From Isoetes taiwanensis (taxonomy: Eukaryota; Streptophyta; Lycopodiopsida; Isoetales; Isoetaceae): 64,000 bases of DNA. The position numbers and the translations under genes were made by a program. The stretch is taken from contig JAJEKV010000297.1 of assembly GCA_021234155.1 (NCBI GenBank), forward strand, positions 186,001 to 250,000, written 5' to 3'. Of the stretch, positions 5,368 through 64,000 are shown piece by piece; the stretch's first letter is position 1; each line of letters starts with the position of its first letter. The notes under the pieces are model-generated. The model ran no database searches and was not told the origin of the DNA. It worked only from the letters and a program-made list of their open reading frames with translations.

Positions 5368-5425
5368 CCCACCCGCCCTTCCTTATTAGATGTTGCGTAC
5401 TTGGTTGATGTGATTTGGTATTTGG

Positions 5426-5526
5426 TGAGGCCCTCGTGCCTGGTTAGAGGCCCTCGTGCCATGGATGGAGGCCCTCGTGCCGTGGATGGAGGCCTCGTGC
5501 CTAGTTGGAGGCCCTCATGCCTGGAT
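5426..5526 (+). repeat. GAGGCCCTCGTGCC minisatellite
   Basis: About five imperfect tandem copies of a 14-24 bp unit containing GAGGCCCTCGTGCC. It is locally GC-rich and lies between AT-rich flanks. No function can be inferred. Confidence 0.6.
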
Positions 5527-5967
5527 GGCCGGATTTTGTTTTCTTTGTTGTATTTTGCAGAAAGCAGGTCGAGAGCACGTAGAAAATGATTTGGGATTTT
5601 GGTCAAGCAGGCTGTACTCTAGGCACTTGTTGAAGACTAATAGAGAAGGCAATGCAAACATGGAGTTTTATTTTATTATTCATTGTATTTCCTACCCGAC
5701 AAGACTGGTGAGCATGAGGGTATAGCATTTGTACTCTGTTATGACTTTGGGCTCTAGCATAAGTTAGTGATGCCATTATGGTTAGGGTTTTTCCTCGAAA
5801 ACCCGTGAGGGCGAGGTTTTTTAATCCCGATCATAATGGTTTTACTAACTCGCTAGCATGTACCTGCAACATGTATTTTTTCTTGATTATTAAGGAGATG
5901 CCGAGAGTAGCAAGCATTCTTGCCTTGTCTATCCGTAGTAGTTCTAGAATAAATACTAATAAATTAA

Positions 5968-6540
5968 AAATTAATAAATAATAAAAGAGCCCGCCTTTTA
6001 CTAGAATTTGAAAACGCTCAGTCCTTGACGGTCAGGATTTGTCCTAAAGCCTCGGGTCGCCACTCTAACGTATACTCGAAGGCTCATTCGAATACTTGTG
6101 GACAAGCGATTTGGGCGTAAAATGGTTTGTTGGAGTTTAGAAATGCTGGGTTCTTGCCTAACTGCATCCTTTTAAGTCTGGAGCTTCGGATATTTACATT
6201 AGGGCATTGGTGGAGAATTACAATGGACTGCAAATCCAGGTATTTTCTTGGCAGCATTTAAAAAAATGTAAAATGTCCAATGCGCAGCTCATATGTCCAA
6301 GATGAGTGATAAAGATTTTACTTCTAGCCTTAGAATGCTTATTGAACAATGCAAAAACATTTGGCCTTCAATATCACATTAGAATCAAAGGCAAAACCAT
6401 ATCATGCTGATGAATCTTTTTACCTATGCAGAGCACAACTTTCTTTTTCACACAGAAGGAACAGGGCACGTTTGATGCAATCTAAACCCTTATGCATTCA
6501 GTGACAAAGTTCTACTGTATAGCAGACACGACTTAAAGAC
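5968..6540 (+). promoter_or_regulatory. Upstream region of the kinesin gene
   Basis: About 570 bp without ORFs directly precede the kinesin start codon. This must contain the promoter and 5' leader if transcription starts close by, but I can point to no distinct element. The interval 5368-5968 likewise contains no supported gene; near its end (about 5915-5947) it has a second copy of a 34-bp sequence also found at about 5152-5185. Confidence 0.3.
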
Positions 6541-9500
6541 ATGGAAAGAATATCTGTTGCTGTTCGCGTGAGGCCAATCATAAAGCAAGACAATGATATA
6601 AATAACCCTTGGAAAGTAGATGAGAATACTATTTCCTTGTGCAATTCATATGGCATACCTGTTCCTTCTTCTTCTTATACTTTTGGTAAGAGCATATCAT
6701 TTAATCTTTATGCTAACTTATAGTGATTACTTCTAATGTTCAGTGTTCATGCAGATCATGTTTTTGGTACAAAGGCTAGAAATGCAGAGGTCTACAACAT
6801 CCATACAAAGGAAGTAATTGCTTCTGCAGTACAAGGCTTTAATGGTAAAAAATACGTCAAAAGTCATGTTTTTGGGTTGTTTGCAAACTGATGACGTACG
6901 TGCACTAAAGTAGATTAAGAAAGAGTTGTATCGTCTATTACAAACAACATATTTCAGAAACTTAGATTTCTCATACTATAACCAATGTTAGTGAAATGTC
7001 TTTATTATGCTTTTGCTGTTGGACAGGCACAGTGTTCGCATATGGACAAACCAGTAGTGGAAAAACCTATACAATGCAGGGATCAGGAGATGTTCCTGGT
7101 ATTATTCATCTAGGCGTCCGTGATGTCTTTGACAGCATAAAAAATGTATGCACATTCCTCCAGCATATTATACACATGCCATGATGGAGATTTGCATGTC
7201 ATAAGTATATTGTTTTGTCAATAAAACTTCACAGATCTCTGGCAGGGAGTTTCTGACCCGTGTCTCTTACATGGAGATTTATAATGAAGATATTAACGAC
7301 CTTTTGGCACCAGAAAATAGAAAGCTTCGTATCCATGAAAATTTGGAGGTAAGCTGATATCTTTTACAATTGAATCTGATAGAAACGTAGTTAAAGTCTA
7401 TTTTTCTTGAAAATTATATGCAGCGGGGAATTTTTGTTGCTGGCCTTAGAGAGGAAATAGTTAACAGTCCGGACCAGGTTTTCGAGTTTCTGAGATTTGG
7501 AGAAGGTACCATCTTTGTTTCACCTAATCACAAATCAGGAATCTAACTGTGCTCACTTCAGCTCACCGACATTATGGAGAGACAAACATGAACATATACA
7601 GCAGCAGGTCACATACTATATTTCGAATGGTATGTTTTGTGGTAGCCTCAAGTGTTTCATACTTTTACATGGCCTTCTTAAATAAAGCAGATCAGTAACC
7701 TTGCATACCACGGTAGTTTATCATTTGGAAGTAACTCTTTTTGAGTGCAGGTTATTGAGAGCAGGGACAAAAGCAAGGACTCAGCTGCTGTCCGGGTATC
7801 TACCCTAGTAAGTCAAGGAATCTTAAATTCATGGAACCAAACCACATTCTCTGCTTACCTTAATCCTTAATTGCCGGGATGGTCATAGAACATGGTGGAC
7901 TTGGCGGGATCTGAACGTGTTGCAAAGACTGGAGCAGGTGGGGTTCGTTTAAAGGAAGGAACTCATATCAATAAAAGCCTTATGATACTTGGGACAGTTA
8001 TCAACAAGCTCAGTGAAGCTCCTGGGAAACAAGGGTGCGTGTATGCTTTGTTTTTGATAGAACTTGATTGACAGGATATTAATAATGTTTCAATGTGTAT
8101 TATTTGTACAGAGCAGCTCACATACCATATAGAGACAGTAAGCTTACCCGTATTCTACAGTCCGCTTTAGATGGGAATGCTAAAACTGCTATCATTTGTA
8201 CTATTACTCCAGATGAGGTAAATCAATTAGTTCTATAACTCAGAAAGCTCACTGCTCTAGCTTATCTAGGAAAGTGGCATGAAATGTTTAAATGCAGATC
8301 CATGTTGATGAATCTCGAGGCACCCTACAATTTGCAAGTAGAGCAAAAAAGGTTTCAATTTGTGCGCATGTTAATGAGGTATGCAAGTTTTTTGTGAGAA
8401 ATGTTTAAGCGTGCAGTTAGTATAGTAAGCATACAAGCTTTCAGTGTGACCACCATATGCTCTACTTTGTCCTTATAACTGATCTATCAGTCTATCAATT
8501 TTAAGGGATGTAGTAGTATATGGGAAGTCCTGATGCACAAGCAAAATGATACCTTATTTGGCCGCTTAGCTAAATACAGGAAGCATGGAAATGTTATACA
8601 AGTTCATTTTTAGATTATGCTTTTTTAATATTGCTTTGATTACCAAGGTCATCTATTCTTCTCTTACCAAATTGTTTATCCTACAGATACTCACTGATGC
8701 TGCCTTGTTAAAGAGACAGAAGAAAGAAATTGAGGATCTTCGTCAGAAGCTACAGGTAATTAGGTACTCCATTTTTTTTTGGTAAGAATCTCATGCTGGC
8801 TATAATTAAGTTTGGATAAGCCAATAGTTTCATCTGTAATCCAGGGCTCGCGATCGGATGATCTGGAGAAACAAATTCTGAATCTTCGTAATGACTTACT
8901 AAAGGTTGCTTTTTTCACTTTTAAGGTTCAAATATCCTCATTTGCTTCATGCTAACAAGATTTGTATCAATCTAGTATGAACTTGAGAAGGAAAGGCTAT
9001 GCTTAGAGCTTGAGGAGGAAAAGAAGGCTCAACTAGAGAGAGAACGGCGCATAAAAGAACAGGAGGCAAAGATTGAGAATCTTAGCAGCATGGTGATAAA
9101 CTCGGCCTGGGATGATAGGGATATTAAAATGTTAAGAAAGGTACAGTTTATTTACCTGCTTCTCATTTATATTCAAATTTTAACAGCTAATTGTGTTTGG
9201 TTTAACTGCTTGTTAGGTGAATCGCCGTGAGACATGGTGCCCGCGCCAATTAAGTTCCGATTTAGCAGTTGAGGTAGGCGTACTTAAAATGCTACAATAT
9301 ACATAAAGGTGGTTCACGTGACTAGTTTATATTGGTTTTTTCTTACATAAGAGCTTCGAGAAGAACCATACAAAAGAACCTGCAGACTCTTTTGATTACT
9401 CCAGGGTGTCATTTCGAAGAGACAATTCTCAGACTCCGCTTCCAGCTTTTGAAGAACTTTTTGACAATGAGGACCAAACTCCATGGAGCTCTGCCAGCAT

Positions 9501-39829: not shown

Positions 39830-40667
39830 ACGTCAAGGGTGGTTAACGGTACCCAATATCAGCCAGAGAAAAAAAAAACGGCGATACAGACACCCGTGAA
39901 CAGCCAAAGGTCCTGGGCTATGGCTACCGACGCCGCTGCAGCAGGAGTAGGGAAAGGGCATAATAGTCGTCATATATGGCGATGCCAGAAACTGAATAGT
40001 TTTTCAAATCGGGCCCGTTGTCTGTATGCTGTTGTATTTTTTTTTCCCGATCCTTTAAATTCTTTACCGCTCTTGCCCAGCTCCCCGTTTTGGCCCTCTT
40101 CTTCTGTGTTTTTTTTTCTCGCTTCATTTCTTTCGTTTTTCTCGCCGTAGTGTAGCAGTCTCATTTCCGCATCTCCTTGCTTCATTTCGGCCGCCTTTGG
40201 ATCTGCCTTAAGCATGGGTTTTGCTAAAATAACCCACTGTTTTGTGCTTTCGTTTCTGCAACTTATGCGCTTTGAATTTATCAACTCAGCTTCTGCTGAG
40301 ATTTCTTAGAAGATTCGGCGAACTGGGTTCTCATCGGTGAAGTGGGTCCTAATCCGATGAATCTCTGCTTGTTGTGTGAGGCTTGGGTTAAATTTGTAGG
40401 ATCTGGGCTGCTAGAATTCTACCGATTTAGAGCAATCTGTTGTAAAGGGCTATAAGATTTTGATTCGGGAAGGTGATTTGGGTTATTTCTGTCTAGGAGA
40501 TGCGAATTCGGTTTGTAGAAGAAGAAATCTGTCGCTGAATCTTAAAGAAAAACAAGCGAATTAGAAGAACGACCGAGGGCATCAAAACTAAGGACCCAAA
40601 TCCGGCACAAAAAGCTGGACAGATTAGATCGAATCTGCAAATAATCTGCGAAGCGTTAAACGAAGAA
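39830..40667 (+). promoter_or_regulatory. Promoter and leader region of the NAC gene
   Basis: About 800 bp with pyrimidine-rich tracts (about 40,020-40,150) and no supported ORF. The start codon follows an A-rich stretch ending AACGAAGAA. I cannot place the transcription start exactly. Confidence 0.4.
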
Positions 40668-42783
40668 ATGGAGGGGCCAGCTATGGCGGAGATGGACGGC
40701 AAGGAAGAGCCATATCTACCGCCGGGCTTCAGATTTCATCCGACAGATGAAGAACTGGTAGCATATTATCTAACCAGGAAGGTTTTATACAGCAATTTTA
40801 GCGTGAGAGCCATCTCCGAAGTAGACCTCAACAAATGCGAGCCCTGGGAGCTGCCCGGTAATGGCCCAATTTTTATTTTCTGCTCCATTTTTCGAGACTA
40901 CCCAACACGATCTGGCACGATTCTTCTAACTCTCCTTAATTTTTTTCCTGTTTTTGGGCATTCCAGATAAGGCCAAAATGGGCGAAAAGGAATGGTATTT
41001 TTTTACCCTCCGAGATCGTAAATATCCTACCGGAATGCGCACCAATCGAGCTACCGAAGCTGGGTATTGGAAGGCCACCGGAAAGGATCGAGATGTCATA
41101 AGCTCCAGATCTCCAATTTTGGTCGGAATGAAGAAAACCTTGGTTTTCTACCGTGGCCGGGCTCCAAAAGGCGAAAAAACTAACTGGATCATGCATGAAT
41201 ATCGTCTCGAAGGCGAGGGCTGCCAATCCAGAATCCCCAAGGTTGTAAATCTTTAACCACCTGCTTTCGTTTTCGAATTAATTCCGTTTCTTATTTTGGG
41301 CTCATCAGTGCTGCATGATTGCTTGCTTGTTTCTGTAAAAATGGTGTGCTGCAGCGGCTTCGTGTATGATTGCTTTGCTTAAAAGGAATGTCACAGCGAT
41401 CAATCATTTTCTTGCCTCTCTGACATGAATGATGTGATTTGAGTGTCGAAATCGGTTTGAATATGAATAAATTTGTGGGTTGGATTCCGGAAAATTTTGG
41501 CCGTTTTGCTTGGACATTTGAAAGAGGGAATGCTGCAGCGGCAAGTTTTTGCAAATTGTCTGGCGTGATGTGATCTGAGATTTCATGAGTGATGTGATTT
41601 CAAACCACCTGAATTAGATAGTCTAAGCTCGTTCGAACTCGAAGGAGGATGCTGCTGCAGCGGGAGTTGAAATTTTTTTCAGGAAGCTGCTTCCTTTTCA
41701 TTATTTATTTGAAATTGAATCTTAAAACCAGAACGAAACATAAACAGATGTGTAAGAAGCGAAATGGGGTTTGATAAAAGGAAGGGGTTGTTAAGATTTT
41801 GAGATGTGTGTGAGTGGTGCTGCAGCGGCGGGCCGGTAAAAGCCTGTAAAATGCATGGGAACTGCTTGATCTTGACGGGTTTGATGAGCGGAATGCATAA
41901 CCGTAATAATTTTGATGACCCAAGTGAGCAGGAGGATGTGATGTCTGTAAAAAAAATCTATGGCATGATGTTGAAAACGAATAGGACGAACCGGATATCT
42001 GGTTCAAAAATGCCAAAGCCTAACCCCGTTTGATCCAAATTACAGGATGCGGAGTGGGTCGTATGTCGGATTTTCCAGAAGGTGCCAGGAGGCAAAAAGA
42101 GCTTGATCCGTAGCAAAGAAATCTACAAAGAAATTTACAGCGGAGGCCCAAATTCGCAGAACAGCTACGACGGAATGGAACCCATCCAGCACCAGAATCT
42201 GCCCCCTCTGCTCGAATCTCCCCATGTCGCTGTAATCGAAGATCCCAATCTGGACAGCGAGCCCAGCTCGGCCGATCAAATGGTTAATTTTGGCCCCGCC
42301 GATCGGAATTTTGGCCCCGGTTTTTGGATCAAATCCCCTATTCATCCCCCTGCCGCTGCAGCACAACACCCCCTTGTCCAGTTCTTCGATCCCGCTTCCT
42401 CCCATCCCAATTTTTCTTCCGGATTTGATTCTTCTGCCAGCCTTTTCCGCCTCAGACACGATCTGGGTCCCCATCTCCCTTCCGTTCCTGATCATCCCCA
42501 TAGCCAGTTTCACATCAGAAATTTTCCTGACCAGAAACTCCCTCTCGCCCGGCCCTGCAAAATCGAGCCTGTTCTTGCCCTTAATTCTCAGATTTTGATC
42601 AACCAGCAGAATAATCCTAACTGGTTTCAGCCCAATCAGATCGGTTTTGATCCTCAGCACCAAAATCAGATCCATTTGCAGCTCCAGACGCAGAATTCTG
42701 CCTTGCATGACCCTGAGCCTTACCGGAATCATCCTCCTGTGCATTCTGCAGCTGTGGATATGGAAAATCTCTGGGCTTATTAA
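40668..42783 (+). CDS. NAC-domain transcription factor, NAM/CUC subgroup
   Basis: Plant-specific DNA-binding regulator of about 400 residues. Exons 40668-40857, 40967-41241 and 42046-42783 have GT-AG borders and a continuous frame. This three-exon layout, with introns at ELPG/D and IPK/D, is typical of NAC genes. All five NAC subdomains are present: [49 protein letters not shown] with [32 protein letters not shown] with [11 protein letters not shown]; and [10 protein letters not shown]. These sequences place it near the CUP-SHAPED COTYLEDON/NAM group, which controls organ boundaries and senescence in flowering plants. The C-terminal half is rich in Pro, Gln, Asn and His, as expected for an activation region, and ends [10 protein letters not shown] find no match in exon 3 to the miR164 target of CUC1/2-type genes. 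The gene looks intact. Confidence 0.95.
41349..41830 (+). repeat. Recurrent TGCTGCAGCGG motif in NAC intron 2
   Basis: Four copies of TGCTGCAGCGG lie in the 804-bp second intron, near 41349, 41530, 41653 and 41818, with spacing of about 120-180 bp. Another GCCGCTGCAGC lies upstream of the gene near 39930. They may be remnants of a decayed tandem duplication or binding sites; the sequence alone does not decide. Confidence 0.55.
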
Positions 42784-50209: not shown

Positions 50210-50919
50210 TGAACAACATGAAACTATGTTGCTACTGTCAACACTTTTTGTCCTCTTAACACTGGAGTTGTTCCTTCATGGACCATTACGTTGACAATTG
50301 CTTTTCACAAAATTTTGATTGGGGAAAAAGGTTTTAATCAAAAATAGATTTTTATGGGTTTCTTTAATGAAATGGGCCATCGATTTGTGGCTCATATTTT
50401 CTTCCCCTTTAATAGGGTTTGAGACCAGAAGCACGAGCTTGGGTCTTTTGGATATGGATGAATTTAGCCTGAGCGTCAACTGGAGCAAGGCCGTCAGTTG
50501 AGCTTCCCTTGTGCTCTTGATTCTTGAGAAAAGGGCTTCTTAGAGACCTCGATTCTTTTAGGAAACAATGCAACCTCATGCATTGATCTAGGCAATGACA
50601 ATTTGTCTAGCAATGACAATCGCCCCATTGATTCGGAGCTTTTCAAGCACAAGGTATTAGCAACATGTAATTTGGAGCAGAATATTTGTAAGGAGACCTG
50701 CAAGCTTAGGGTTCTGTCTATTTTGGCCCGGAAGCTGGATTGTATTCCTAAGATTGTGTTTGATGCCTTTGAGCTTCGATCTCAGCTTTTGGGCATTTTT
50801 TTTTGCATTCGAAGCCCGCATGTTTGCATTTTTTTTTTGCATTCACTCTCTTCTTCTCTGCTCTGCTTATCTGCTTCTTCGTGGTGTCGACTGAGAGCTT
50901 TGTTACACTCGAACCTGCA

Positions 50920-51138
50920 ATGCGAGGTGAATGGCGAGTCAAAAGATGCAGGAGAAATGGTGTTTCTACACATTGGAAGGCTTTGGTGGTCGGTTCTCGA
51001 TCAGGCAAAGAGATATTTGTACAAGTAAGGCATGTATACACTCCAACAGATATGGCAAAAGAAAAAATAAGCAAACGACGAACTTTCCCACGGTTAGAAG
51101 CAAATTGTGAGTATGTACTTCTATGCAATCCATATTGA
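50920..51138 (+). CDS. Small unrecognised ORF at the start of the island
   Basis: ATG 50920 opens 72 codons, MRGEWRVKRCRRNGVSTHWK at the N-terminus and ending LEANCEYVLLCNPY. It is basic with several aromatics. Upstream in the same frame, a long hydrophobic stretch reads into it (about 50,830-50,905), which could be a signal peptide or membrane segment, but only a TTG precedes that. I do not recognise the protein. No intron is apparent. It is the first of a run of intronless ORFs on plus. Confidence 0.3.
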   Translation: MRGEWRVKRCRRNGVSTHWKALVVGSRSGKEIFVQVRHVYTPTDMAKEKISKRRTFPRLEANCEYVLLCNPY

Positions 51139-51334
51139 AATTAGTTCAGTTACTTATCCAGTTCATTCCTATTCTCTCAGGTTTGTGTATATATATCTGA
51201 TGTGGAGAACACAGTCTCTTCACACGCGATAAGTAGTGTATTCCATTGCTTTCACCAAGTTATGGGCTCCTTGTCTTCGAAGGTAGCACACCAGTGCAGC
51301 TCAGAGAAAGGGGTATATGGTTCTGGAGGTATGA

Positions 51335-51988
51335 ATACTCTCCACGAAGATCAAGCTAATTGAGCTTCCATTGCCCAGCCTGTCCGATTTATACTGCAGG
51401 CCTCTGGATGACACTTCTATCTTATTAGCACGGAGTAAGTTGTCGCAGGAAATGTTCACGGCATTGAAGGAGAAGGGAGGAGTCTGCGGGCATGTGAAGA
51501 TAAATTTAGGAATTGATCTGTTCATTGCCTTATTCAAGAGCGCCGACAATGTTAAGAGGACCTTAAAGATGTTTACAGTTCAATAGTCGGTGGATAGTTT
51601 TTTAGATAGTCTATTTCTTGAAGGTTGGAGTGCTCGACTTCACGATGGAGCTGAATCTACTGAATGCAGGATAAGTCGAGACACGGTTCGGTTCAGATAT
51701 TGCATTCGAAAGCAAACGATGTATGTCACTTTTAAGTATAGGAGATGGCGAAATGTCCGTGAAGGAAGAAAGTACGTCTGGATTCCTGTAGAGCAAGATG
51801 ACAATGATGGCACTCATTCCGTTGTCATAGACTTGAACATTCATAAAGATAATCAGCTATTCAAAAGTCTGAGAGCGAAGAGCGAGTGGTCTCTATTCGA
51901 TGTTCGGCGGCAATTAGAGTTTGAGACAGACTTAAATTTCTTCCATAGACGGCCAGAAGGTGGGAAAGCGCAGAGAAGAATGCTATAA
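51335..51988 (+). pseudogene. Unrecognised ORF broken by one in-frame stop
   Basis: An open frame from 51335 reads KIKLIELPLPSLSDLYCRPL and continues to TAG at 51587-51589. It then goes on in the same frame (SVDSFLDSLFLEGWSARL) to TAA at 51986, about 215 codons in all, with another in-frame stop (TGA) at 51332. No known domain. The second half is rich in Arg and aromatics (YVTFKYRRWRNVREG) with alternating hydrophobic stretches that suggest beta structure. A palindrome array starts 126 bp downstream. A nonsense-mutated single gene is the simplest reading; stop readthrough is the alternative. Confidence 0.4.
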
Positions 51989-52113
51989 ATTGGGGTCATG
52001 CATGCCACCCAAAGTCATATCTGTATATGAAACTATGTAATATAAATATAAGTGATAGTTAATTGGATATCTATTGTATATTAATTGCAAACATTTGCTT
52101 TCATTGGAATATA

Positions 52114-52425
52114 AGACTTAAAATAGCTACGGAGCGAAATTGTGTACAACATAAAATATGGATGTTGTATTTTCACACCGTACTTACAATGCGAAATTGT
52201 GGATATCATAAAATATGGAAGGGCTATTTTCGCACTGTAACCATGGTGCGAAAATGTGCATAGCATAAAAAATAAATGGGGTAGTTTCGCAGCGTAGCCA
52301 CGGTGCGAAATTGTACATAGAATAAATTATCGAAGTCTTGTTTTCGCACCGTAGCCACGGTGCGAATTTGTGTATAGCATAAATTAAGGAAGTGTTATTT
52401 TCGCATCGTTGCCACGTTGTTAGTC
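52114..52425. repeat. Palindrome array A (57-bp period, six units)
   Basis: A 26-bp palindrome (TTTCGCACCGTAG/CCACGGTGCGAAA, with variants) starts at 52114 (degenerate), 52171, 52228, 52285, 52342 and 52400. The period is 57 bp, once 58. The 31-bp spacers are AT-rich and related (ATAGCATAAATTA-like). It lies 126 bp downstream of the preceding ORF and 75 bp before the next ATG. Confidence 0.9.
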
Positions 52426-52498
52426 TCTCTTGCAAATCAAGCCGCTACAAAGGCGCTCACATTTAAACTGTCATAAATCGAGGCGTTGCTCCACAAGA

Positions 52499-53388
52499 AT
52501 GGCAAATAGAGGGTCGGATAAAGCATGGGAGCTGTTTAGCGCATGGTATGAAAAAATAGTGGAGAAAGAACGGGATTTTCGTCAGAAGCATCCAGAAGAG
52601 TTCGAGGAGGAGCTAGAGGAACCAGTGGATGCAACCACTGTATATAATAATTTTTGCCTGACAGTAGACATTATGGCAGAGTGTAACAGGTTTACTTCAT
52701 ATGGCGGCATCCTTCATAACTTCATGGCTAGAGCTGGTCCTGACGTGAAACCATGTCCTGTGATTGGTTTGCCTTCACTAAGCATGCAAGCTTTAATTAA
52801 GATGTTTCTGAAACCTGATCAAGACCGAATTAGAAGGTTCTTGAAGAGACTACCTGCAGAACTGTGCAGCAAGAGGGCAAAGAAAGTTTTTTCAGCCTAG
52901 ATATCATGTTCAGCACATACATGATTTACATCAAGCTAAGCAAAGATGCCGGTTCTTCTTCAAGTGCACAGGTCGCTTAAATAGAACGCCCTGCCTCACC
53001 AGTAGAGGAGCCGATAGATCCTGAGGAAGAGAAGCTCATATTGGAAAATGAGGAGAACGAGGTTCTGGGAGAGGAGGTCTCCGAGAAAAAATTGTCTACT
53101 TGGGGGTTATCAGAAGCATATCCCATCCATGTAGGTGGGAAACCATACTTGTTGCTGCCCGACATATCTGAAGTGACAGGGTTGAGAGAAGATGAGATAT
53201 TGGGCCAGATATATGCGCATGTTGTAGGCCTGGGAGGACTTATAGACTTTGAGACTGATGTCCCCAGATAAATGATGGAGGCTGTGACTTATAATGGATC
53301 CTCAATACCTCCAGAGGATGCATTTGAAATTGTCATGCAGCAAGCTGAATGTTTGGGGTCTGGGTTCTGTGAGGAGCCTTGGATCTAA
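52499..53388 (+). pseudogene. Unrecognised intronless gene, frameshifted
   Basis: ATG 52499 opens MANRGSDKAWELFSAWYEKI, a charged helical N-terminus with a Glu-rich patch. It runs through VYNNFCLTVDIMAECNRFTS and LKRLPAELCSKRAKK to a stop at 52900. The coding signal continues in the +1 frame (FFQPRYHVQHIHDLHQAKQ) and then a third frame (VEEPIDPEEEKLILENEENE, YPIHVGGKPYLLLPDISEV). It crosses one in-frame TAA (53269) and ends at about 53388. The original protein would have been near 295 residues. No family is recognised; the EEKEE-rich middle and His-rich part give no firm clue. It lies between array A and the GC-rich block. Confidence 0.4.
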
Positions 53389-53756
53389 CAGGAGAATCCG
53401 GGGGCTATGTCGCGCGGGATTTGCAAAAAGAACCAAGAAAAAGAGAAAAGAAAGCAAAAGAGAACAATGAGATCACAATAAGGAGAACAACTTCTTTGAT
53501 GTCAATGAAGATACATGAGCTCTCGCAATTGAGAGAAAACTGAAGTGAGACAAGACTCAAAACTCATCTAAAAACTCGAGTGCTAACTCTACTCATATAT
53601 ATAGTATAATGGCCTTTGGCCCAATATAGACACTCTGACTGATTTCGGTGCCGACTCCTGAAAGAAGGCCTGATTTGCAGGAATGGTGGCGGTGCCTCTT
53701 GAAATGCCTGAAATCACGCTGACGCTGATGCTGGCGGTGATGGGCCGTCACTTGTC

Positions 53757-54077
53757 TTAGCGCCTCCTCTTGGTGGCAGGCGCGACCTTTGACTGCGTGG
53801 TCTGCTGCTTGGTCTTCTGTGGGGCCTTGGACGACTGAGCAACTGGGTCCTTGGCCTTGACTTGGTCCTCAGTATGCATGAATAGTCCGTATCGGGGCGT
53901 CTGGACTAACACTACCCCACCAAATGACACTCGAGTGAAGAAAAGGAGGAAGTGTTTCCGATGGCGGGAATCCAGCTGTTTGAAAGTGATCCTCACGGGA
54001 ACGAGGACGGGCTCCATTGTGATAATTGCCAATGAGATCCTGACGTACTTGAAGAGCTTCTGGAGTGTTAAGCCCAA
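53757..54077 (-). CDS. Possible small basic-tailed protein
   Basis: A 106-codon minus-strand frame starts MGLTLQKLFKYVRISLAI and ends SKVAPATKRRR. The first 70 residues alternate hydrophobic and basic stretches, and the last 40 are Lys/Gln/Thr-rich with a basic end like nuclear or DNA-binding tails. It is in a GC-rich block where all frames stay open by chance more easily, and a plus-strand frame covers part of it, so this is tentative. Confidence 0.25.
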   Translation of the reverse strand: MGLTLQKLFKYVRISLAIITMEPVLVPVRITFKQLDSRHRKHFLLFFTRVSFGGVVLVQTPRYGLFMHTEDQVKAKDPVAQSSKAPQKTKQQTTQSKVAPATKRRR

Positions 54078-54343
54078 GTCTTGAGGATGGCGCCAAGGAG
54101 AAATCCTGGCGCCGCCATGTCTTCAAAGGGCGGCATGTGCCTCGGCGAACTAACCGGCACTCCATGAGAAGGCAGCGGTGAGGAGGCGAAGGCACCGACG
54201 CCGGGCATTCGGTTGCAATAAAAAGATGGGACGCCGATTTAACGAGCTTACCAGGAGGCACTTGAGAGCGGCACAGAAGCCGGTTTGACGGTGAACTGAA
54301 GGGTCCGGGGAGGTGGCGGCATTTTGCAAAAGGCATCAAGGCC

Positions 54344-54952
54344 ATGAACAGCCTCAGCAGGCTTTTGCCAACCACGCTCATTGGCAATATAGATTCAATT
54401 TTTCGGTGGTCCAAGGTGGCACCATCCTTCCAATTGGAGCTGCTCGACAAAACGTGGATCCCGGAGATCCGCCGAGATCTCGAGGGGAGTCCACCCAAAG
54501 ATGGCCTTCCCCGTGACCTTGGTCCAAAACGGAAGACGCCAGTCCGAGGTGAGAAACCGTGGTTCAACCCGTGGTCGCCAAAGGTTTGTTTTAAAGACAT
54601 TGGACCGCCGATGCATCCTTTTACGCCCTATCCCAACGATGGCCTCCGCCTAAACAAAGGGCATTTCATCTTGGTTCGGTTGGCTCCTATGGTCGATATG
54701 GGGAGTGTCGCGGAGAACCACATCTTTTCGGGGGCATTTATTCATCCGCACACGGTGTTATTACAGGTGGCCTTAAAAAAAGATATTGACGACCCTACGA
54801 GTGTTCTTCCCTTGACTCAGAACTGGTGGAACACATCTGGATTCAGTATCTTCGGATTGATTCTTATCATTAGTTTCCTATTCTGGAGTAAGTACATTGT
54901 GCTCCAGGCTCGTGCTCCTGTGGCATCTCTGTGTGCTTACACAGTTAGATGA
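54344..54952 (+). CDS. Unrecognised ORF with a C-terminal membrane segment
   Basis: A 202-codon intronless frame from ATG 54344 (MNSLSRLLPTTLIGNIDSIF). The middle has Trp/Pro-rich blocks (WFNPWSPKVCFKDIGPP) and a well-formed segment LNKGHFILVRLAPMVDMG. Near the end, GFSIFGLILIISFLFWSKYI is a strong single transmembrane helix, followed by a short tail. AATAAA at 54984 could be a polyadenylation signal, and array B starts 119 bp after the stop. I find no similarity to a known family. GC content is clearly higher than in the plant-like flanks. Confidence 0.45.
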   Translation: MNSLSRLLPTTLIGNIDSIFRWSKVAPSFQLELLDKTWIPEIRRDLEGSPPKDGLPRDLGPKRKTPVRGEKPWFNPWSPKVCFKDIGPPMHPFTPYPNDGLRLNKGHFILVRLAPMVDMGSVAENHIFSGAFIHPHTVLLQVALKKDIDDPTSVLPLTQNWWNTSGFSIFGLILIISFLFWSKYIVLQARAPVASLCAYTVR

Positions 54953-55070
54953 GACATGTAAATTTTGTACTTTTTCTCTGATTAATAAACTTTTTGGCTT
55001 TCGTCCTTCAACAAAAAAAAATATGTTAGGTCATCTTTAATAGTGAATTCAGTCATTTCCATGTATGTAC

Positions 55071-55210
55071 ATCAGGAGCGTAGCCACGGTGCGAAAATAG
55101 GATGTCGGCAGTTTTTGGACTGCCCTATTTCGCACCGTGGCTACGGTGCGAAAACAACCATTCCACGGCATGCGCATGACACCATTTCGCACCGTGGCTA
55201 CTATGAACAT
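55071..55210. repeat. Palindrome array B (57-bp period, three units)
   Basis: Palindromes start at 55071 (half degenerate), 55128 (perfect, TTTCGCACCGTGG/CTACGGTGCGAAA) and 55185 (right half degenerate). Spacing is exactly 57 bp. The spacers differ from those of array A. It follows the previous ORF by 119 bp, and the next ATG is about 80 bp further on. Confidence 0.9.
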
Positions 55211-55288
55211 TTTTTAGTCTAGGGGTTTATGAGATTGGGAGAGACAATATTGCTTATTTGAATTTCTTCTCCTTGCTAAAATCCGCTC

Positions 55289-55865
55289 ATGTCTATGGAA
55301 GGCGCTAGCTCTGAAAACCCACAAAATGAGGCACTTGACAAGCGCCAGAATCTTGACGAGGTCATTACTAGCGGGCAGAGGCGACTATTCCCATCACAGA
55401 GGCGAGCGCCTATTCCCATCACAAGCCGGCGGATGGGCGTAGATGAGACTGTCCTTCGAAATGGTTGGGCAAAGGCTTGAAAATGTCGCCCGGGACATTA
55501 ATAATAGTGTGGGCGAATATTTCCAAACCCGAGCGGGTTTCCTACTCGGTCTCCCTCACGAGCTCCGTGAAGGTTGTTGGGGAAGGAGTTTTCATGCGAG
55601 GCCTCATGCGCCACAATATTCCGTTTCAGGCGCAGTATTGTGGTATCGGTGGATGCGACTCACGGATCCAATGGCGATCTGCCCTTCCCCACCCCAGGCG
55701 AGAGGCGATGAGGAAGCCGTCGGGTCATGCGGCCAAGTGAAGGATGATGACATCCATGTCCCGTGGAGAAAGCGACCATTCAGTTCCTATGTAATGAGCT
55801 GGATTACATCTTTGGGACCGGGGGGGGGGGGTATCTACCGACCAAGTCTTTGTGGCGGAGGTTGA
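55289..55865 (+). pseudogene. Degenerate ORF, frameshifted
   Basis: ATG 55289 opens MSMEGASSENPQNEALDKRQ, 63 codons with a hydrophilic N-terminus and basic IPITSRRMG. It ends in a stop near 55480 while adjacent frames stay open: one from 55443 (MVGQRLENVARDINNSVGEY) to 55865, another from 55465 to 55740. Some frame change around 55450 is likely, but I cannot decide which later frame is real. No recognisable domain. Confidence 0.3.
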
Positions 55866-55939
55866 CAGGGGCCATGGTGCCTAGTGGCCGCTGAATCAAG
55901 TTACCCCGTCTAAGGCGTTGGGGCCTGACGCATTCCCAA

Positions 55940-56731
55940 ATGTTTGGCGGTGGTGAGGGAAGGAACAAGAGTCTGAAACCCGACTCATTTAGTGCGGCGA
56001 CAAACTACGGAAGTGCGGCAAAGATCGGCGGGACCAACATGATCGGCATCAGCAAGACCGGCGGGATCGGCGGGACCGGCAAGATCGGCCGGGACCGGCA
56101 TGATCAACATCGGCGGGACCGGCATGATCGGCAGGATCGGGATGATCACGGGAAGCCCGGGCCCGGTGGAACAGTACTAGGAAGATCATTTCCTACAAGA
56201 CGCTGTAAATCCACGCCCAAGAGATCCGGCCCGGCAAAGCCTCCTAAGCTTGTTCCTAGTTAGAGACAAGCTGAGAGAGATGCAGCCAAGGAGACAGATA
56301 AGCATGGGAATAAGCGGAAGCCGAAGGAAGGGGAGTCTAGTATTAGATATGGTGGCCCTGAGAAGATAAAGGGTGCTCCTCCTGGCACTCAGGCTTTAAG
56401 GGAGATTAGGTATTGGCAGGCACGCAACCAGCCTCTAATTCCCAAGCTTGCCTTCGCTAGCATGGTCAGGTACGAGATGCAGGCCATCATTGAGAGGAGG
56501 AAGAAATCAAGAAAGAAGAGGAGGGAGAGAGCACCAGACTATGTCCCGATGGTGGAGGAGGAGGTGAATAGAATCCAAGCAGAGGCCTTGGATATACTGC
56601 AAGAGGCAGCAGAGGCTCATCTAATTAGCCTCTTTGAGGACAGTATCCGATGTTGTGTGCACAGAGGACGTGTTACTGTGCAGGACAGGGACTATGCCTT
56701 AGCTAGATACTTCTGTGGATGCCTCCCTTAG
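55940..56731 (+). pseudogene. Divergent histone H3-fold protein with expanded alpha-1/loop-1 region; one in-frame stop
   Basis: The C-terminal half is a histone fold of the H3 class: PPGTQALREIRYWQARNQ (alpha-N; canonical PGTVALREIRKYQ), LIPKLAFASMVRYEMQ (alpha-1), ILQEAAEAHLISLFEDS (alpha-2; canonical LQEAAEAYLVGLFEDT) and VHRGRVTVQDRDYALAR (loop 2/alpha-3; canonical IHAKRVTIMPKDIQLAR). Between alpha-1 and alpha-2 there are about 20 extra residues with a basic run (RRKKSRKKRRERAP); long loop 1 is a mark of centromeric H3, but this one is longer. The upstream tail is Gly/Lys/Arg/Asp-rich, then TRRCKSTPKRSGPAKPPK, reminiscent of an H3 tail. A TAG at 56261-56263 separates tail and fold in the same frame; no ATG occurs between the stop and alpha-1. 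No introns. AATAAA at 56817; array C starts 151 bp after the stop. Confidence 0.75.
56023..56165 (+). repeat. GC-rich minisatellite in the H3-like tail
   Basis: Imperfect tandem copies of ATCGGCGGGACCGGC-type 12-18 bp units encode the Gly/Ile/Lys then Arg/Asp/His-rich part of the tail. A shift of reading register within the repeat explains the change from GGTGKIG to DRHDRQDRDD. Confidence 0.7.
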
Positions 56732-56881
56732 AAGCCTTTTGTAACCCTTTTTTGGTTGTTAATATATGAGTGTTTTAATATTTTTCTCTTTATGGTTACA
56801 TTTTAGTTCTCCTTCTAATAAATGTTGAGGTTCTGTAATTATTTGCTATTCTATTTATTGAGGCTGTGTATTCATTTACTA

Positions 56882-57134
56882 GTGTTGACCGTGGCCACGG
56901 TGCGAAAATGACTATTCCACATTCTGTGGGAAGGTCTATTTTGCACCGTCGTCACGGTGCGAAAGTAATAGTTCCAAAATTTCTGGAGGGCGCAATTTCG
57001 CACCGTGACTACAGTGCAAAATTGACTGTTCCACACGTTGTGTGGGGGGCACTTTCGCACCGTGGATACGTTCAGTCATTTTACTCAAACAACATGCTGG
57101 GGTGCCTATTTCGCACATGCAGAAGAGAATGCTT
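56882..57134. repeat. Palindrome array C (57-bp period, five units)
   Basis: Palindromes start at 56882, 56939, 56996, 57053 and (half only) 57109. Periods are 57, 57, 57 and 56. Spacers share GACTATTCCACA/ACTGTTCCACAC motifs, and one recalls the spacer of array B (CAACCATTCCACGG). It begins 151 bp after the H3-like stop codon. Confidence 0.9.
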
Positions 57135-57299
57135 ATCTGAATTTAGAATCTACATGTAAGGCAAATGGCCAAGAGCTTTCCAAATTGAAAATGTGCCATA
57201 GATAGATGGATCACATGTATCACTTATAGTTACATCTTTATAACTAGCGAATGTCTGAAATATTCTAGTAACAGAATTTAGAACTCATATAAGAGACAT

Positions 57300-57636
57300 A
57301 GCATACATGAATGAAGCAGTTCATTCAGGGTTGGGCTCATCATGAGCAGGTGGTTGAGTGATGCTATTAAGCTCATAGGCGCCGCGCTCTGGAACTCAAT
57401 CAAGGTGGATAACAACACGATAGAACCCAGAGGAAGAACGAGTTCGACCCAGGGATACCCCTCTGCTTGCATCTAACAAGATCATTAAATGTCATCGTGC
57501 AAGTAATGGAGTCTATATCTTCGGGACGAGGAGGCAAGGTAGACCCCCTGGAATAAGAAGATGAAGATCGAGACATAGCAAATGGATGCCTTCTGCATTG
57601 AATGGAGCTGTACTTATATCGAACAATTATTGACAT
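57300..57636 (-). pseudogene. Possible small minus-strand ORF
   Basis: On minus, MSRSSSSYSRGSTLPPRPED (from about 57577) leads to TFNDLVRCKQ. A shift to the next frame continues SRGVSLGRTRSSSGFY and YELNSITQPPAHDEPNPE before a stop near 57325. About 95 residues, Ser/Arg/Pro-rich. No family is recognised. It lies between arrays C and D opposite to the other ORFs. Confidence 0.25.
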
Positions 57637-57764
57637 GCACTGTAGCAGTATTATTGGTTATATATACGAGCATAGTGTACAAAATACACATGTAAATATA
57701 ATGTACATATATAGTATATAGTATATATACCTAGTTTCTCTTTAAAGAGCCATCTATGCCTTCA

Positions 57765-57935
57765 TTGTCTTTGCCTCTTTCCCCCTCTTGTCTGCTTCTT
57801 GTTTGCATGTTCCTTGCCTCCCTGTCCGCTTCTTGTTGCTCCTTGCCTCCCTGTCCGCTCCTTGTTTGCATGCTCCTTGTCTCCCTGTCTGCTCCTTGTT
57901 TTGCTCCTTATTAAGTAGCTTTTTTGCTCCTTGCC
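57765..57935. repeat. Pyrimidine-rich minisatellite
   Basis: Imperfect repeats of TCCTTGCCTCCCTGTCYGC and GCTCCTTGTTTGCATG. The minus-strand Lys/Gln/Arg-rich ORF through it is a by-product. Confidence 0.7.
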
Positions 57936-57956
57936 TGCTCCACTAGTTTCTTGCAA

Positions 57957-58530
57957 ATGGTAACTTTGCAAGAACATCCTCGCTGGGCTGATCCGAAATA
58001 CCTGCAAGCATGCGGCAGAATAAATACGTGCACTTTTGATGAATTTGTTAGCAACTTTTGGGAGCATCGGTGGCGTCACGGTCCAACCACAGAGCTTGCA
58101 AGGCAGCTGATCAACTTCATTATCGATCGCTATACTCGTCATCTCCCTCCACTGCAAGAGATCAGTCTGAGTCATGCAAGGATCACTCTAAGTGCTTTGG
58201 GACTTCTTGAACCCCCCTCAGATTTGAAAGATAGGCTAGAACAGTTGAAGGACATGCTTTTCCATGGTTTCATGGCCTACTCTCTGGATCACTATGTACC
58301 TCTGGTCATTCCTACTTGTGAAAAGAATAGGATTTATATCTTCATTGAACTTTACAACTTCCATTACAAATCTTTTGTGGATATTGGTCAGCTCCTATTC
58401 CGATCCCTTGACTTCAACATCTTGTGGCTACTGTCTTGTGGCCCCGTATAGGGATACAATTCCTTGGGATACACGTGAGCTATGGCTACATAGCACACAG
58501 CATATAATACGTACATATCACAGGTAAAGA
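57957..58530 (+). pseudogene. Unrecognised intronless gene, one frameshift near the end
   Basis: ATG 57957 opens MVTLQEHPRWADPKYLQACG and runs through NFWEHRWRHGPTTELARQLI, LPPLQEISLSHARITLSALG and HYVPLVIPTCEKNRIYIFIE to a stop at 58451. In the neighbouring frame the sense continues from about 58425 (YRDTIPWDTRELWLHSTQH) to a stop at 58527. The predicted protein is about 185 residues, globular, rich in aromatics, with mixed helix. No homologue comes to mind. Array D begins about 220 bp after the end. No introns. Confidence 0.45.
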
Positions 58531-58747
58531 TACTCCATTGGAATTATGTGTATAAATTGGTATGAACCTACGATTTTCATAGAAATTAAGTATATAAGCA
58601 TGTGATTTCCGTGTAATTAAGTAACTTCTATATATTATCATGTATTATCTTAGCAATAATTTTCCTTTTAACTTTTCGTGTAAGTGAATGATTTCTTCTA
58701 TTATTTTCCATGTATTTTCCCATGTGATTGTTCTATTTCTGGTCATA

Positions 58748-59058
58748 TTCGGCACAGTAGCCACGATGCGAAATCGCCTCAGTTACAAATTATTGAAGGG
58801 CCTATTTCGCACCGTGGCTACAGTGCGAAATACGTGGATCCAGTTTAGTTACAGACCCATATTTCGCACCATAGCCACGGTGCGAAATCGCCTCAGTTAC
58901 AAATTATTGAAGGGCCTATTTTGCACTGTGGCTACGGTGCGAAATATGTGGATCCAGTTTAGTTACAGGCCCATATTTTGCACCGTGGCCACGGTGCGCA
59001 ATACATGCATCCAGTTTACTTACAATACAGCATTTCGCACAGTGACCACTATCAAACT
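58748..59058. repeat. Palindrome array D (57-bp period, six units, alternating spacers)
   Basis: Palindromes start at 58748, 58805, 58862, 58919, 58976 and 59033: an exact 57-bp period throughout. Spacers alternate: TCGCCTCAGTTACAAATTAT after units 1 and 3, TGGATCCAGTTTAGTTACAG after units 2 and 4. So a 114-bp two-unit block has been duplicated. A plus-strand frame (58688-59086) stays open across it and encodes 19-residue repeats around FRTVATVRN. Confidence 0.95.
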
Positions 59059-59094
59059 GATAAATAAACCACCTTTTTTACAGTAGAGATATCA

Positions 59095-59990
59095 TCAAGA
59101 GCTCTCAATACAGACATAACCTTTGCCTTGTCTACATCTCATTAATCTCCACTCCCTTGATCGCTCAACAGCTGCGGACTTATACCAAGCTTCCCTCTTT
59201 TTTTCCCACTGGGTTTTTTGTCTAAACAACTTAGCAAGTGTTGACTCACTCTGGTTCCGTGATTTCTTGACCCATTTGGACACAATCCTTCTGTAAAACC
59301 ATTGACGCATCTGCTGTAAGGAATTCCCAACTGAACCTCTGTGTTGAGTGAAACGGAAGAATGCATTCTTTGCTTGCTTATGGGACTTCTCCATTTCCTG
59401 TGTATTACAAATTTCTAGGCTTCCATATTCCCTGACAAACCACACGCCATGTGCAAACAGAATATGGACATAGTGAGCCAAATTGGCCTCATCCCATGCC
59501 GTCAGGAAAGACTTAGGAAGTTTGTGACGGCCTCCTGGAATTTGGCAACATCATTTTCTTGCATTACCTTTTTCTGCATTTCCTTCACCAGTACAGAGAA
59601 ATCCTGCCATGCCTTGATTTTCTTCAGGCATGATCTACCACGATCATTTCGATCATCCTCAGCTGCAATAAGATCCTTGTAAGCTTCCCAAACACCAGAT
59701 AAGTTCTCTTTTGCGGAAGGCAAAAACCTCTTAGCCTTTGAACCACCCATACTGGGTTTCAGGGGAATCTTGCCAGATACCTTTGGATCTTGAAGTATTT
59801 TGTAGTGCCCACCATGAAGTCCCACATTAGATAGCACCTTTTCAACTTCATGCATGGCAGCTTCCCTAGAGCTTTGGGGTGATTTATTCCAAGCAAACAC
59901 GATGTAAACCATCTTGTCTATGATTCTCAAGAAAGCATGAAGGGTGGATATGTGCACTCTTTTTAACGGAATTAGCAGAATTGGCATCAA
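59095..59990 (-). pseudogene. Transposon-type protein, C-terminal region, frameshifted
   Basis: Two minus-strand frames follow each other. The first (59990-59502) reads HGGHYKILQDPKVSGKIPLK and KAKRFLPSAKENLSGVWEAY. The second (59481-59095) reads ILFAHGVWFVREYGSLEICN, then QEMEKSHKQAKNAFFRFTQH and SLQQMRQWFYRRIVSKWVKK. A pattern of 'H-----F---YG-------Q-(M/L)EK------K--F---T-H' is shared with transposon-encoded proteins I recall from animals and non-flowering plants, so this is likely a decayed transposase. It marks the right end of the ORF/array region and faces it. Confidence 0.45.
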
Positions 59991-59999
59991 GGTTGTGTC

Positions 60000-62800
60000 C
60001 TTCTCTTCTCTATTTGGTGGCTCATCCTAGATACAGTCTAATGTACTCTTGTCCAACGCAGCTGAATCTCTTCTCGCATAGAGACAGTAAAACCATCATT
60101 CATTTAAATTGGGATTATGTCTTAATTTTGGGACATTTTTCAGGTTGTAGTTTTTTACTGATGAATTCAAATTTACATTTCTTATTGTTTTTTTACAAAT
60201 ACGTAAGGGTAAAAGCATGTTAGGGTGTACCACTTTTGGAACCTGCAAAAGTACATACACTAGGTACTTCAGAACTGGGTACTTTCTCATTTTTCTTTTC
60301 ATTAAAACTAGTACAAAAGTCCAAAATAAAAGTCAAGGACGTGTTAATATTTAAAGGTAAGATAAATATAATGCTATCTAAGCCCAAAATATATATAAAA
60401 GTTCTAAAATGTACCTTTTATTGACATATTACACAGGTACCCAGTACCCAGTCCGCAAAAAATTCCACATGAGGCAGATTCTTTATTGAGAAAAAAGAAG
60501 AATAAGCATACCTATTCCTTTTTCATTTCAAAAGTAGACGAAATAATAACAAACAAATTACTTTCATAAAATTGAAGTCCCATACAAGAAAAAAAGTTCC
60601 ATTATATATTTCCGTAGAAATTACAATGTTTCTTCATCCACTATCCCAACAACTTCCACAATTTGTTTTTGAAATTGATGGGCTTGGGCTTTCTTATGTA
60701 GTCCAAAGTAGAACCCATCACAGCATGCATATAATAGCATCATGCGTCAAAGATACGAAAACCACAAAACAAATAGTATTTTCCATTACTGACGTGAAAT
60801 ATGAGATTCACAATTAAAAAATTTGTTTGGTAAGAGTTAAACTACAGAATATAGAAATCTCTAAGTTAGTGCCATAATTACAATTCTAGATGACATTCTG
60901 AACTAGAAGTAGCCATGGTTCCATATCAAACATGGTTTGATATTCTTAAAATTAGCCATGGCATATCAAACAGGTTTCGCATTCCTAAATAAAAGTTCTA
61001 AATATCTTGAAATAATCTCAAAGATAAAATGTGTATGTGTGCTTCCTCATATCTAATACACAAATATAATAATAAGATTCTAAATAGATAAAATATTATA
61101 TTCACTCAAGCTCATGGCGTAACATAAAAAAATGCTCAGTTTACCTTGAAAATGAGCACCTTGAAAATAAGCTTGAAAATAAGCTGAAAAGGCTCAAAAA
61201 TATATCCCAACAATTTATTTGGTTCACCTAAGAAAATACCCAAAAAGATTGATTTGACTCAAAAATAACTAAAAAGAAAAAGCTAATTGTTAGCATGAAA
61301 ATAAGCCAAAACAGGCTGGAAACACACGCTTGGCATGAATATGGTGGAAAGCAGAAAAGATTTAAATTGCTTACCAAAATCAAACTCTGGCTCCGGATTG
61401 CTTGGTGAGGCCCTATTAATAATTGTTAGTGTAAGATTTATGATTAGCAAGCTAAATAATTCGTCCAGATAAACAAAACTCACATATTTGGACTGGTCAA
61501 GTCGGTCAGGCGTTAATGGGGATTCAAATGTGGGCAAAATCAGAGGGCTGTCGGGAAGAACTAGATGCTTGGGTGATGCCGAAAGCAACATTCAGATGAT
61601 GGAGCAGAAAAAAGAAAAAATGGCAAGAATAATTGTATAGAATTGATAAATCCGTGATTTGGGAGTGATTAGCAGGGCGAGGGCCAACATTTGGAAGCCG
61701 GAATAGACAGGGGTTGACAGGAGGGGCTAGGCAGAGGTAAAGCTTGATGCTAGTGTAACTGTAGGTGTAAATCGTAAGATTGCAGAGTTCGCCCGAATAA
61801 TATTGTATAGACCAAGATAAATTTGTTCTTGGTTACAATTTCTAGATGACATCCTTTTTTGCAGGACATAAGGAGTGAGAATCAAAATATGGAACGGAAG
61901 CACAAATGTGTGAGAAATAAAAACAAATCAAACCTGGAAGCTCATATTCTTGCTATCAGATCTATTTTTGCCGGATCAGCTTGTGTTTTATTTTCGGAAA
62001 TGCTTTGGGTCTGTAGTATTCAGTGGCTGCATCAAAAACAAGAAGGTTAAAAGAAAGGAAAGTGCAGGAACTCAAATTTTAAGAAACACGTGCGTGAAAT
62101 TCAAATTTACAAAACACATTTTGTGCTTCTTTTGTGCTTCTTCTTCCAGCTTCTTGCTTGATCCATGGCTTCCCCTTTCATCCATTCATGATACAGATGT
62201 GATCTTTCGATTGTATTCGTAATTGCGTGAGCAGATATACCATAGTTGCTGATTCCAGAATATAATTTGCACATTTCGGTATAGAAATTCATTTTTTTTC
62301 TGTGTGGCGCTTTTGCTATTTCTCTGTTGGCTCTTTTGCTAGTTCAAGGCTTCATTCCCTCTATGTGCCTTACGAATCCAGCAATGCTGATCTCTATTCC
62401 AATTACAAGATGCCATACCCAGGGCTCTTCTTGAGAAAGAGATACATACAGCAAAAGAAAGAGAAACAGATACAACAAAAGAAATTGAGAGAAGCATAAC
62501 TTACCATTTTTCTGACATGCTTGTGTCGATGCCAGGGGAAAATGGAGAAGAAAAATTTTTCGTGAGCTGCTTTTTTTATAAAGGAGGTAAAGAAAAAAGG
62601 GAGAATAATTTTTTGAATGTGGGCGGCTATGGCAGACTGCTATAAGCATGGATAGAAAAAATAGCAGACAGAATGGCCGATTGAGCAGGCAGAGCGGTCG
62701 AATTTGGCAATGGCAGCTCCTCTTGATGGCGCCTATCTTTTTGCTCTAGGTGCCATCTATCTGCTTGGAGATGCAGCTATAGATGGCGGTGACTATGGCA
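60000..62800. other. Intergenic, no supported gene
   Basis: AT-rich DNA with only short ORFs. GTACTT/GGTACCCAGTACCC-rich segments near 60,225-60,290 and 60,405-60,460 form imperfect inverted repeats. Nothing recognisable as a gene or RNA. Confidence 0.5.
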
Positions 62801-62859
62801 TGCAGCTCTAATACTTCTTTCTTTTCTTCTCAGTCTCATCTGTTCACTTCTGTTTCTTG

Positions 62860-62995
62860 CTTGCAGATGACGTTGGCTATGGCAGAAGATGGCAATGGCA
62901 AGATTGATGCAGTGGCACAAGACGACTATGGCAAGATGGCGATGGCAAGATTGATGTAGTGGCAAGATTGATGCCAGATTGATGGCAGATGGAGG
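62860..62995. repeat. GGCAAGATTGATG minisatellite
   Basis: Imperfect tandem copies of ATGGCAAGATTGATGYAGTGG-type units of about 20-40 bp. The minus-strand ORF through it is a by-product. Confidence 0.65.
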
Positions 62996-63149
62996 CACGC
63001 GTTTATTCTTACCTTGCGTTTTTTTTTAAGCTTTCCTCCGAGTTTTTTTTTTAGAGCTTTCTTATGAGTTTTTCTCTTTATGTCCTATTTTTGCCTTACA
63101 ATTTCTTCCGTTCCATGACCTCCTTGTCAAGCATAAGAGGGAATTTAGG

Positions 63150-63525
63150 ACACGCTAAGCGTGATTTTCAGAAGAGTGAATATCTTAAATCACGCCAAGC
63201 GTGCATTGGTCTATAGCAAAGTGGATCCTAAACCAAATATTAGCACCTAAGCAATAAAAAACCAATTCCCTAGTGCTAAAACTACTTGCCTGGAACTTAC
63301 AATGGTGTTGATATATAAGGTATATCCTCAACTTCACTTTTACAATATTATTGTGCTCGCTAATACATGCTAGGCGTGATTTGTTTTGTTCCATATTAGA
63401 TTTCCTCTAGAATATTATGCTTGCTAATACAGGCTTGGTGTGATTTTTTTTGTTTCATAACTAGGTTTCCTTTACAATACACGGCTTGGCGTCATTTGTT
63501 TTATTCCATAACTAGGTTTCAGTTG
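63150..63525. repeat. Palindromic CACGCYAAGCGTG motif and 60-bp tandem repeats
   Basis: CACGCTAAGCGTG (63152) and CACGCCAAGCGTG (63191) are palindromes. Then three diverged repeats of about 60 bp (from about 63,360) each contain (G)GCTWGGCGTGATTTG followed by TTCCATAACTAGGTTTCC. Non-coding. The end of the window (63.5-64 kb) shows no gene. Confidence 0.6.
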
Positions 63526-64000
63526 TTGAAATAATTAGAGGAATGTGATGACGAGTTTGAACTTGAAGGGGTAACAACCACAACACAATCACCGAATCAA
63601 ATAATGCACAAGGGCAGGGAACTCTAAGAGTAGCTTGGAAAATAATTATAAAGGACTTGGCTAAGAGGTATAGTCATCTTTCCCTTACCTTGCTGTTAGC
63701 TGGAGAATCTCTAGTATGAATCTCATTTCTCTATTGGATAATATTAAGTTTCCTTGTCCACATGAAAAATGTGACATACTTGTTATATACTTGTTATTTT
63801 ATATCTTTCTTACTTTTCCATTACAAGATATGATGTTATTAATGCTAAGAAGTTTGCCTCTTTTATAATATCTCGTGTGCTTCTACCATCAAACTCAAGC
63901 TCAGAATCCATCATCTTATGATCCAAACAACTTTGCAATAGATGAGTTCGTTGTCCAATTTATAGCTATTGTGAATAATTTGGCTAGGGGGATGACAGTT

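Follow-up and report, generated by a model that had tools for sequence, protein, structure and literature searches.

A truncated RAG1-like DNA transposon of Isoetes taiwanensis with palindrome arrays next to the 3' ends of its genes

RAG1, whose descent from a transposon is still debated, is the source of antibody-gene shuffling in vertebrates. Integron cassettes each join one gene to a palindromic 3' element, attC, and baculovirus hr regions hold short palindromes repeated at regular spacing. Among transposons, RAG and Transib make 5-bp target-site duplications, according to the available parts of two reports (PMC7204232, PMC4411706), and 39 Transib-like proteins have been reported in plants, as stated in the available text of Tao et al. 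2022 (PMC9435367), so that the superfamily in plants is not new. Here we analyzed a 64,000-bp stretch of the Isoetes taiwanensis genome (the window), in which a preliminary description had pointed to four palindrome arrays, each downstream of an open reading frame (ORF). We found that this interval almost certainly belongs to a DNA transposon of about 13 kb that is dispersed in the genome and present here as a truncated copy. Our search of openly licensed papers turned up no account of a multi-gene plant element that is RAG1-like and carries palindrome arrays.

We searched the 1.66-Gb plant genome and defined the element from twenty 10-kb stretches, mostly located around clusters of palindrome matches. 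The piece in the window (Table 1) belongs to a repeated element whose copies are about 90% identical. Three full copies, of 12,994, 12,956 and 13,032 bp, are bounded by a 32-bp terminal inverted repeat (TIR), CATTAGAGTTTTTTTGAGGTCAAATAAGGGCC, with 0-1 mismatch. Genome-wide, this TIR gave 206 forward and 219 reverse matches, and a control gave 0. The terminus CATTAGAG was present in 70 of 70 distinct ends, which had been gathered by that motif. Over these ends the 32-bp TIR was nearly invariant, though copy interiors differ by about 10%. Two genes make up the core of the element, one for a RAG1-like DDE transposase and, at the opposite end and convergent with it, gene F. From the left edge, the plus-strand transposase gene is followed by array A1, gene A, array A2, gene B, the plus-strand gene G, array A3, genes C and D, array A4, gene E, array A5 and gene F, with A to F all on the minus strand. 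B and G diverge, and the gap between them carries no array.

The transposase ORF of full copies reaches 797 amino acids (aa). Its model has an RNase H-fold DDE core that matches RAG1 over about 420 residues, and the spacing of the D-D-E, CxxC and HxxxxH residues is nearly that of RAG1 (98/108, 21/19, 208/207, 5/5 and 20/20; RAG1 residue numbers as given in the available part of PMC4914335). All seven residues, the three acidic ones and the CxxC and HxxxxH zinc ligands, are present in the element ORF and in three related transposases described below. By sequence, neither the element ORF nor any of 14 relatives matched RAG1 in Pfam, and a profile search of PDB sequences did not find it either; PF12940 had no match in the whole genome, but control genomes were also silent, so this search is uninformative. 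We consider it very probable that the transposase is related to RAG1 and Transib. The fold and residue spacing are shared with RAG1/Transib and with RAGL (ProtoRAG) transposons, and the convergent two-gene layout of RAG1L and RAG2L recurs in two of the relatives. Several features differ. Unlike RAG1 and Transib, the plant transposase has no sequence-profile match, and its elements end in CATTAGAG rather than in the CAC-type heptamer of Transib and recombination signal sequences. RAGL transposons carry a RAG2-like Kelch partner gene; at the level of Pfam families, none was recognized in gene F or its relatives. They lack the multi-gene cargo and the palindrome arrays of the plant element. The plant Transib-like proteins of PMC9435367 could be compared by description only, and the available text describes no multi-gene element, arrays or missing target-site duplication.

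The element also differs from Transib and RAGL in its insertion, which leaves no 5-bp target-site duplication. No perfect direct repeat of at least 3 bp was found beside both TIRs in any of 12 elements of the family or in either of 2 related ones. One copy (E926) is inserted in a long terminal repeat (LTR), and the sister LTR reads across the insertion point with neither duplication nor loss. An A at position -3 occurs in 35 of 70 ends, a weak target preference (P = 0.0005, chosen after looking). The Spy transposons, a DDE-type group, are described as lacking target-site duplications in a reference cited in the available part of PMC4482050; they are related to PIF/Harbinger, in contrast to the RAG1-like plant element. 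The element is thus RAG1/Transib-related by protein fold and residues, and not a Transib or RAGL transposon by its ends and insertion.

Between the core genes lie cargo genes, of which A and B are paralogues in full copies; the earlier suggestion that the ORFs preceding the arrays are unrelated therefore does not hold for all of them. The histone-H3-like identity of gene C was borne out by matches to Pfam Histone (2.3e-16) and to histone H3 in PDB (1.6e-15), in two blocks separated by about 30 aa. Fungal hAT elements have captured histone H3 and likewise amplify an H3-like gene (PMC6710886, available part); they use another transposase, no palindrome-array cassettes are mentioned in that part, and the plant element has H3 among several genes. 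Two paralogous ORFs (31% identity, E = 8e-11) suggest a putative plus-strand gene G between B and C. Gene E had no homologue at E<=0.01 among 4361 candidates, and gene F and its relatives had no Pfam match. Among the element and window ORFs scanned against Pfam, no viral and no recombinase family was recognized, and most ORFs fall in no family at all.

A histone-like gene together with palindromic repeats resembles large insect DNA viruses, which brings up an endogenous DNA virus with hr-like palindromes. We found no viral family match in Pfam or in the viral structures of BFVD, where none was close to the transposase model (best E 0.008), and viral contigs had neither a palindrome match nor a transposase relative. 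Given the TIRs, the copy structure of 13 kb and the RAG1-like transposase, a viral origin is extremely improbable and was dropped. A packaging signal, one of the roles that had been proposed for the arrays, was also rejected for lack of support: no viral gene was recognized, and three related transposon stretches have no arrays.

The four arrays of a 26-bp palindrome were found again at 57-bp spacing. The 26-mer has 8 sites in the window at <=3 mismatches, versus none in 100 shuffles, and at the same threshold 2161 forward matches genome-wide versus 1 in a reversed-pattern control; the palindrome is nearly symmetric, so forward and reverse counts are mostly the same sites. Half palindromes begin and end the arrays, and neighboring gaps below 400 bp are exactly 57 bp in 118 of 148 cases. 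Between different arrays the arms agree at 24-26 of 26 places and the spacers at 8-16 of 31; A5a and A5b, which belong to one array, agree at 21 of 31 spacer places. In some pairs the spacers resemble each other more than shuffled ones do (P 0.002 to 0.54), which makes a common ancestry of the arrays probable. RNA folding of two arrays gave z values of -11.3 and -8.7. The number of units differs between copies.

The arrays are fixed in place relative to gene 3' ends. Of 58 arrays counted over 28 loci plus the window, 56 occupy one of the five element positions and 2 lack an element flank, so that no other point of the element holds an array; counted as distinct arrays, because L002-L004 overlap L009-L010, 53 of 55 are at these positions next to gene 3' ends. 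The arrays examined across the genome are thus not scattered without relation to ORF ends, and the pairing of an ORF with a shared 3' element, as first described, is a real property of the dispersed element. An array is present in each of the five gaps that hold a gene 3' end and in none of the three gaps with 5' ends only (P = 1/56 = 0.018; without gene G, 1/21 = 0.048). The intervals from stop codon to array are 109-306 bp long and 58-77% AT, and most contain poly(A)-type hexamers; AATAAA occurs in two ORF-to-array intervals of the window, as had been noted. Since A1 and A3 lie between convergent 3' ends, a promoter or enhancer role was rejected.

This placement bears on the possibility that the arrays are binding sites of an element protein (the transposase, F or a cargo product) acting in replication, segregation or synapsis, like hr regions. 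Perfect dyad symmetry, the fixed 57-bp spacing with array-specific spacers and the presence of several arrays per element fit such a role. The baculovirus palindromes, however, are not tied to transposon gene 3' ends as those of the plant element are; no array borders the TIRs or occupies a gap that has 5' ends only, relatives of the transposase manage without arrays, and the transposase model has no viral protein fold. We regard this explanation as rather unlikely. Its narrower form, in which the arrays are subterminal repeats bound by the transposase, was rejected, with none near the ends and relatives without arrays.

A genome search with a transposase relative gave 123 matches, of which only the best candidates were scored, and three places were examined. 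L085 is a 7,616-bp element (7-7622) with CATTAGAG TIRs and convergent genes for the transposase and a gene F homologue. Both genes are present in L086, where no TIR was found. L087, of about 5.2 kb, has TIRs, and no gene F was found in it. The TIRs of L085 and L087 are variants of CATTAGAG. The transposase frames of L085, L086 and L087 are long and open (864, 911 and 930 codons). Genes A-E had no match in any of the three. Two further long palindromes of L087 fall outside the element end. Compared with these relatives, the window family looks like a two-gene core to which cargo was added, with an array at each joint. A 4.45-kb derivative (L088) has the TIRs and arrays, and its cargo is part of gene E only. 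Positions 1508-3011 of L088, about 1.5 kb that L008 also contains, consist of variant palindromic units in tandem, with A/T runs.

Cassettes have also been duplicated and lost. Gene A with A1 and gene B with A2 form a duplicated gene-array pair, and in the window A2 and A1 are fused with the A cassette cleanly missing; the last of the four, previously described as one array, thus joins two that are separate in the full element. An integron-like system, in which the 3' array is a recombination site for cassette capture, duplication and loss between the two core genes, would accommodate these changes, and it agrees with cargo that is confined to between arrays and with core relatives that have neither cargo nor arrays. 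Against it, the loss is explained by ordinary homologous recombination between identical arrays, the ORFs scanned included no recognized site-specific recombinase, and the arrays are several units, not one site. The likeness to integron cassettes is one of layout; the plant element has multi-unit arrays and eukaryotic genes, no integron integrase was seen among the ORFs scanned, and it is probably not a member of that system. We judge an integron-like mechanism highly improbable. The recombination role proposed earlier is partly seen in the fused arrays and the paralogous gene-array pair, but ordinary homologous recombination may suffice. A broader version, a RAG1-related plant lineage (CATTAG elements) without target-site duplication that evolved integron-like cassettes, including a modified histone H3, with arrays that also end or insulate transcription, seems improbable.

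The arrays could instead be neutral satellite-like repeats, expanded by slippage and homogenized, whose place at 3' ends marks where insertions are tolerated. The variable unit number, the expanded variant units of the derivative and the absence of arrays from related families would be expected on this basis. It does not readily account for arms that are alike in arrays whose spacers diverged, for five fixed positions in copies about 10% apart, or for 57 bp being retained in all arrays, and we consider it unlikely.

We favor, at a probability of about 50%, an account in which the interval is a truncated transposon whose cargo genes were gained between the 3' ends of the transposase gene and gene F, with an array at every joint serving as a 3' boundary. 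The arrays follow an AT-rich stretch that resembles a 3' untranslated region and in most intervals holds poly(A)-type signals. By folding into hairpins or cruciforms, or as the target of a dimeric protein, they would halt or insulate transcription where tandem and convergent genes are closely packed. Being common to all arrays, the arms would supply the homology by which whole gene-plus-array cassettes are duplicated (A/B) or dropped (gene A, in the window copy). Judged from the sequence, the arrays may tentatively be taken as putative orientation-independent 3' boundaries. Among the roles offered by the preliminary description, one at 3' ends is the best reading.

Several observations weigh against this account. 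No palindrome (<=8 mismatches) or other array was found in L085, L086 or L087, so arrays are not required for transposition generally, and the non-autonomous derivative retains and enlarges its arrays without cargo genes. All copies are of one ancestry, so the layout reflects few independent events. In copy E930, D and C are in different frames; if these are distinct genes, no array follows the 3' end of D (6/126 = 0.048, by hand). Should each of the G ORFs be a gene of its own, the first has no array, and P is about 0.05 to 0.08, by hand, reaching 21/252 = 0.083 when both D/C and G are split. Gene G is itself weakly supported, with omega 0.21 for exon 1 and 1.39 for exon 2. None of six poly(A)-type hexamers sought was found in the intervals between the transposase gene and A1. 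Within arrays, arms were better conserved than spacers in 4 of 5 groups over all positions and in 5 of 5 outside CpG (16 of 118 units fitted no group), but units were picked by their arms, which biases arm conservation upward. Pooled omega was 0.62-0.69 for seven ORFs (for A and B it takes in the A-B comparison), and copies have many stops and frameshifts, so coding constraint is weak or old. On nucleotide alignments, transposase omega was 0.43 in its own frame versus 0.75 on the other strand; the two were little apart for B (0.53 versus 0.60) and F (0.65 versus 0.84).

The window copy is in reverse orientation, with two insertions within it and the right TIR absent.

Table 1 Features of the transposon copy in the window.
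Feature	Position in window	Strand	Remark
Transposon copy of ~13 kb, partial	50877..60089	-	Element positions 12493 down to 2095
Gene F remnant	51111..51988	+	Core gene, opposite end from transposase; first ORF of the preliminary description
Array A5	52124..52416		Palindromic units of 57 bp; lies 3' of gene F
Gene E, 5' part only	52499..53352	+	Stop-broken; cut by foreign insertion near 53340
Foreign insertion, poly(A)-ended	53350..55020	+	Contains ORF 54344-54952; not part of the element
Array A4	55079..55201		3' of gene E in full copies
Gene D remnant	55280..55834	+	Upstream of H3-like gene; no array separates the two
Gene C, histone-H3-like	56156..56731	+	Open frame from 56282
Array A3	56888..57120		In full copies, C and G converge on it with their 3' ends
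Gene G, second exon/ORF	57290..57610	-	Approximate (extrapolated position)
Gene B	57924..58451	+	Paralogue of gene A
Fused array A2/A1	58744..59049		Gene A cassette lost from between
RAG1-like transposase gene, part	59323..60089	-	3' end faces array; insertion cuts at 60089

The four ORF-array modules first read as cassettes are therefore parts of one truncated element, and one pairing is accidental. A plus-strand ORF does precede each of the four arrays, but the one ending at 54952 lies in the foreign insertion; as an element gene it was rejected, having no homologue at E<=1 among 113 candidates, and the insertion had no match in any other element copy compared. This 202-aa ORF has a hydrophobic stretch near its C-terminus. 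For the last array, other copies support an ORF at 57957-58451 rather than one ending near 58530. The first exon or ORF of gene G falls within a stretch deleted from the window copy. A second insertion, of about 4.45 kb, splits the transposase gene at 60090-64000 (to window-equivalent 64542); the flanking element positions overlap by 3 bp (2095-2097), as from a 3-bp target duplication. Beyond it the copy restarts at window-equivalent 64543, and the left TIR lies at 66586, outside the window. Rfam gave no match over 50800-60200. A host NAC/NAM-domain gene is located at 40539-41256 in two overlapping, exon-like frames.

The known range of the superfamily would become broader with a plant lineage that combines the catalytic and zinc layout of RAG1 with different ends and no target-site duplication, and the working of RAG-type integration could be studied by comparison with it. 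Rarely does a single non-coding palindromic element recur at each gene joint of a transposon, as the arrays do, and their placement makes a mobile 3'-boundary element directly testable. With a histone-H3-like gene among the cargo, one may ask whether a transposon exerts control over chromatin.

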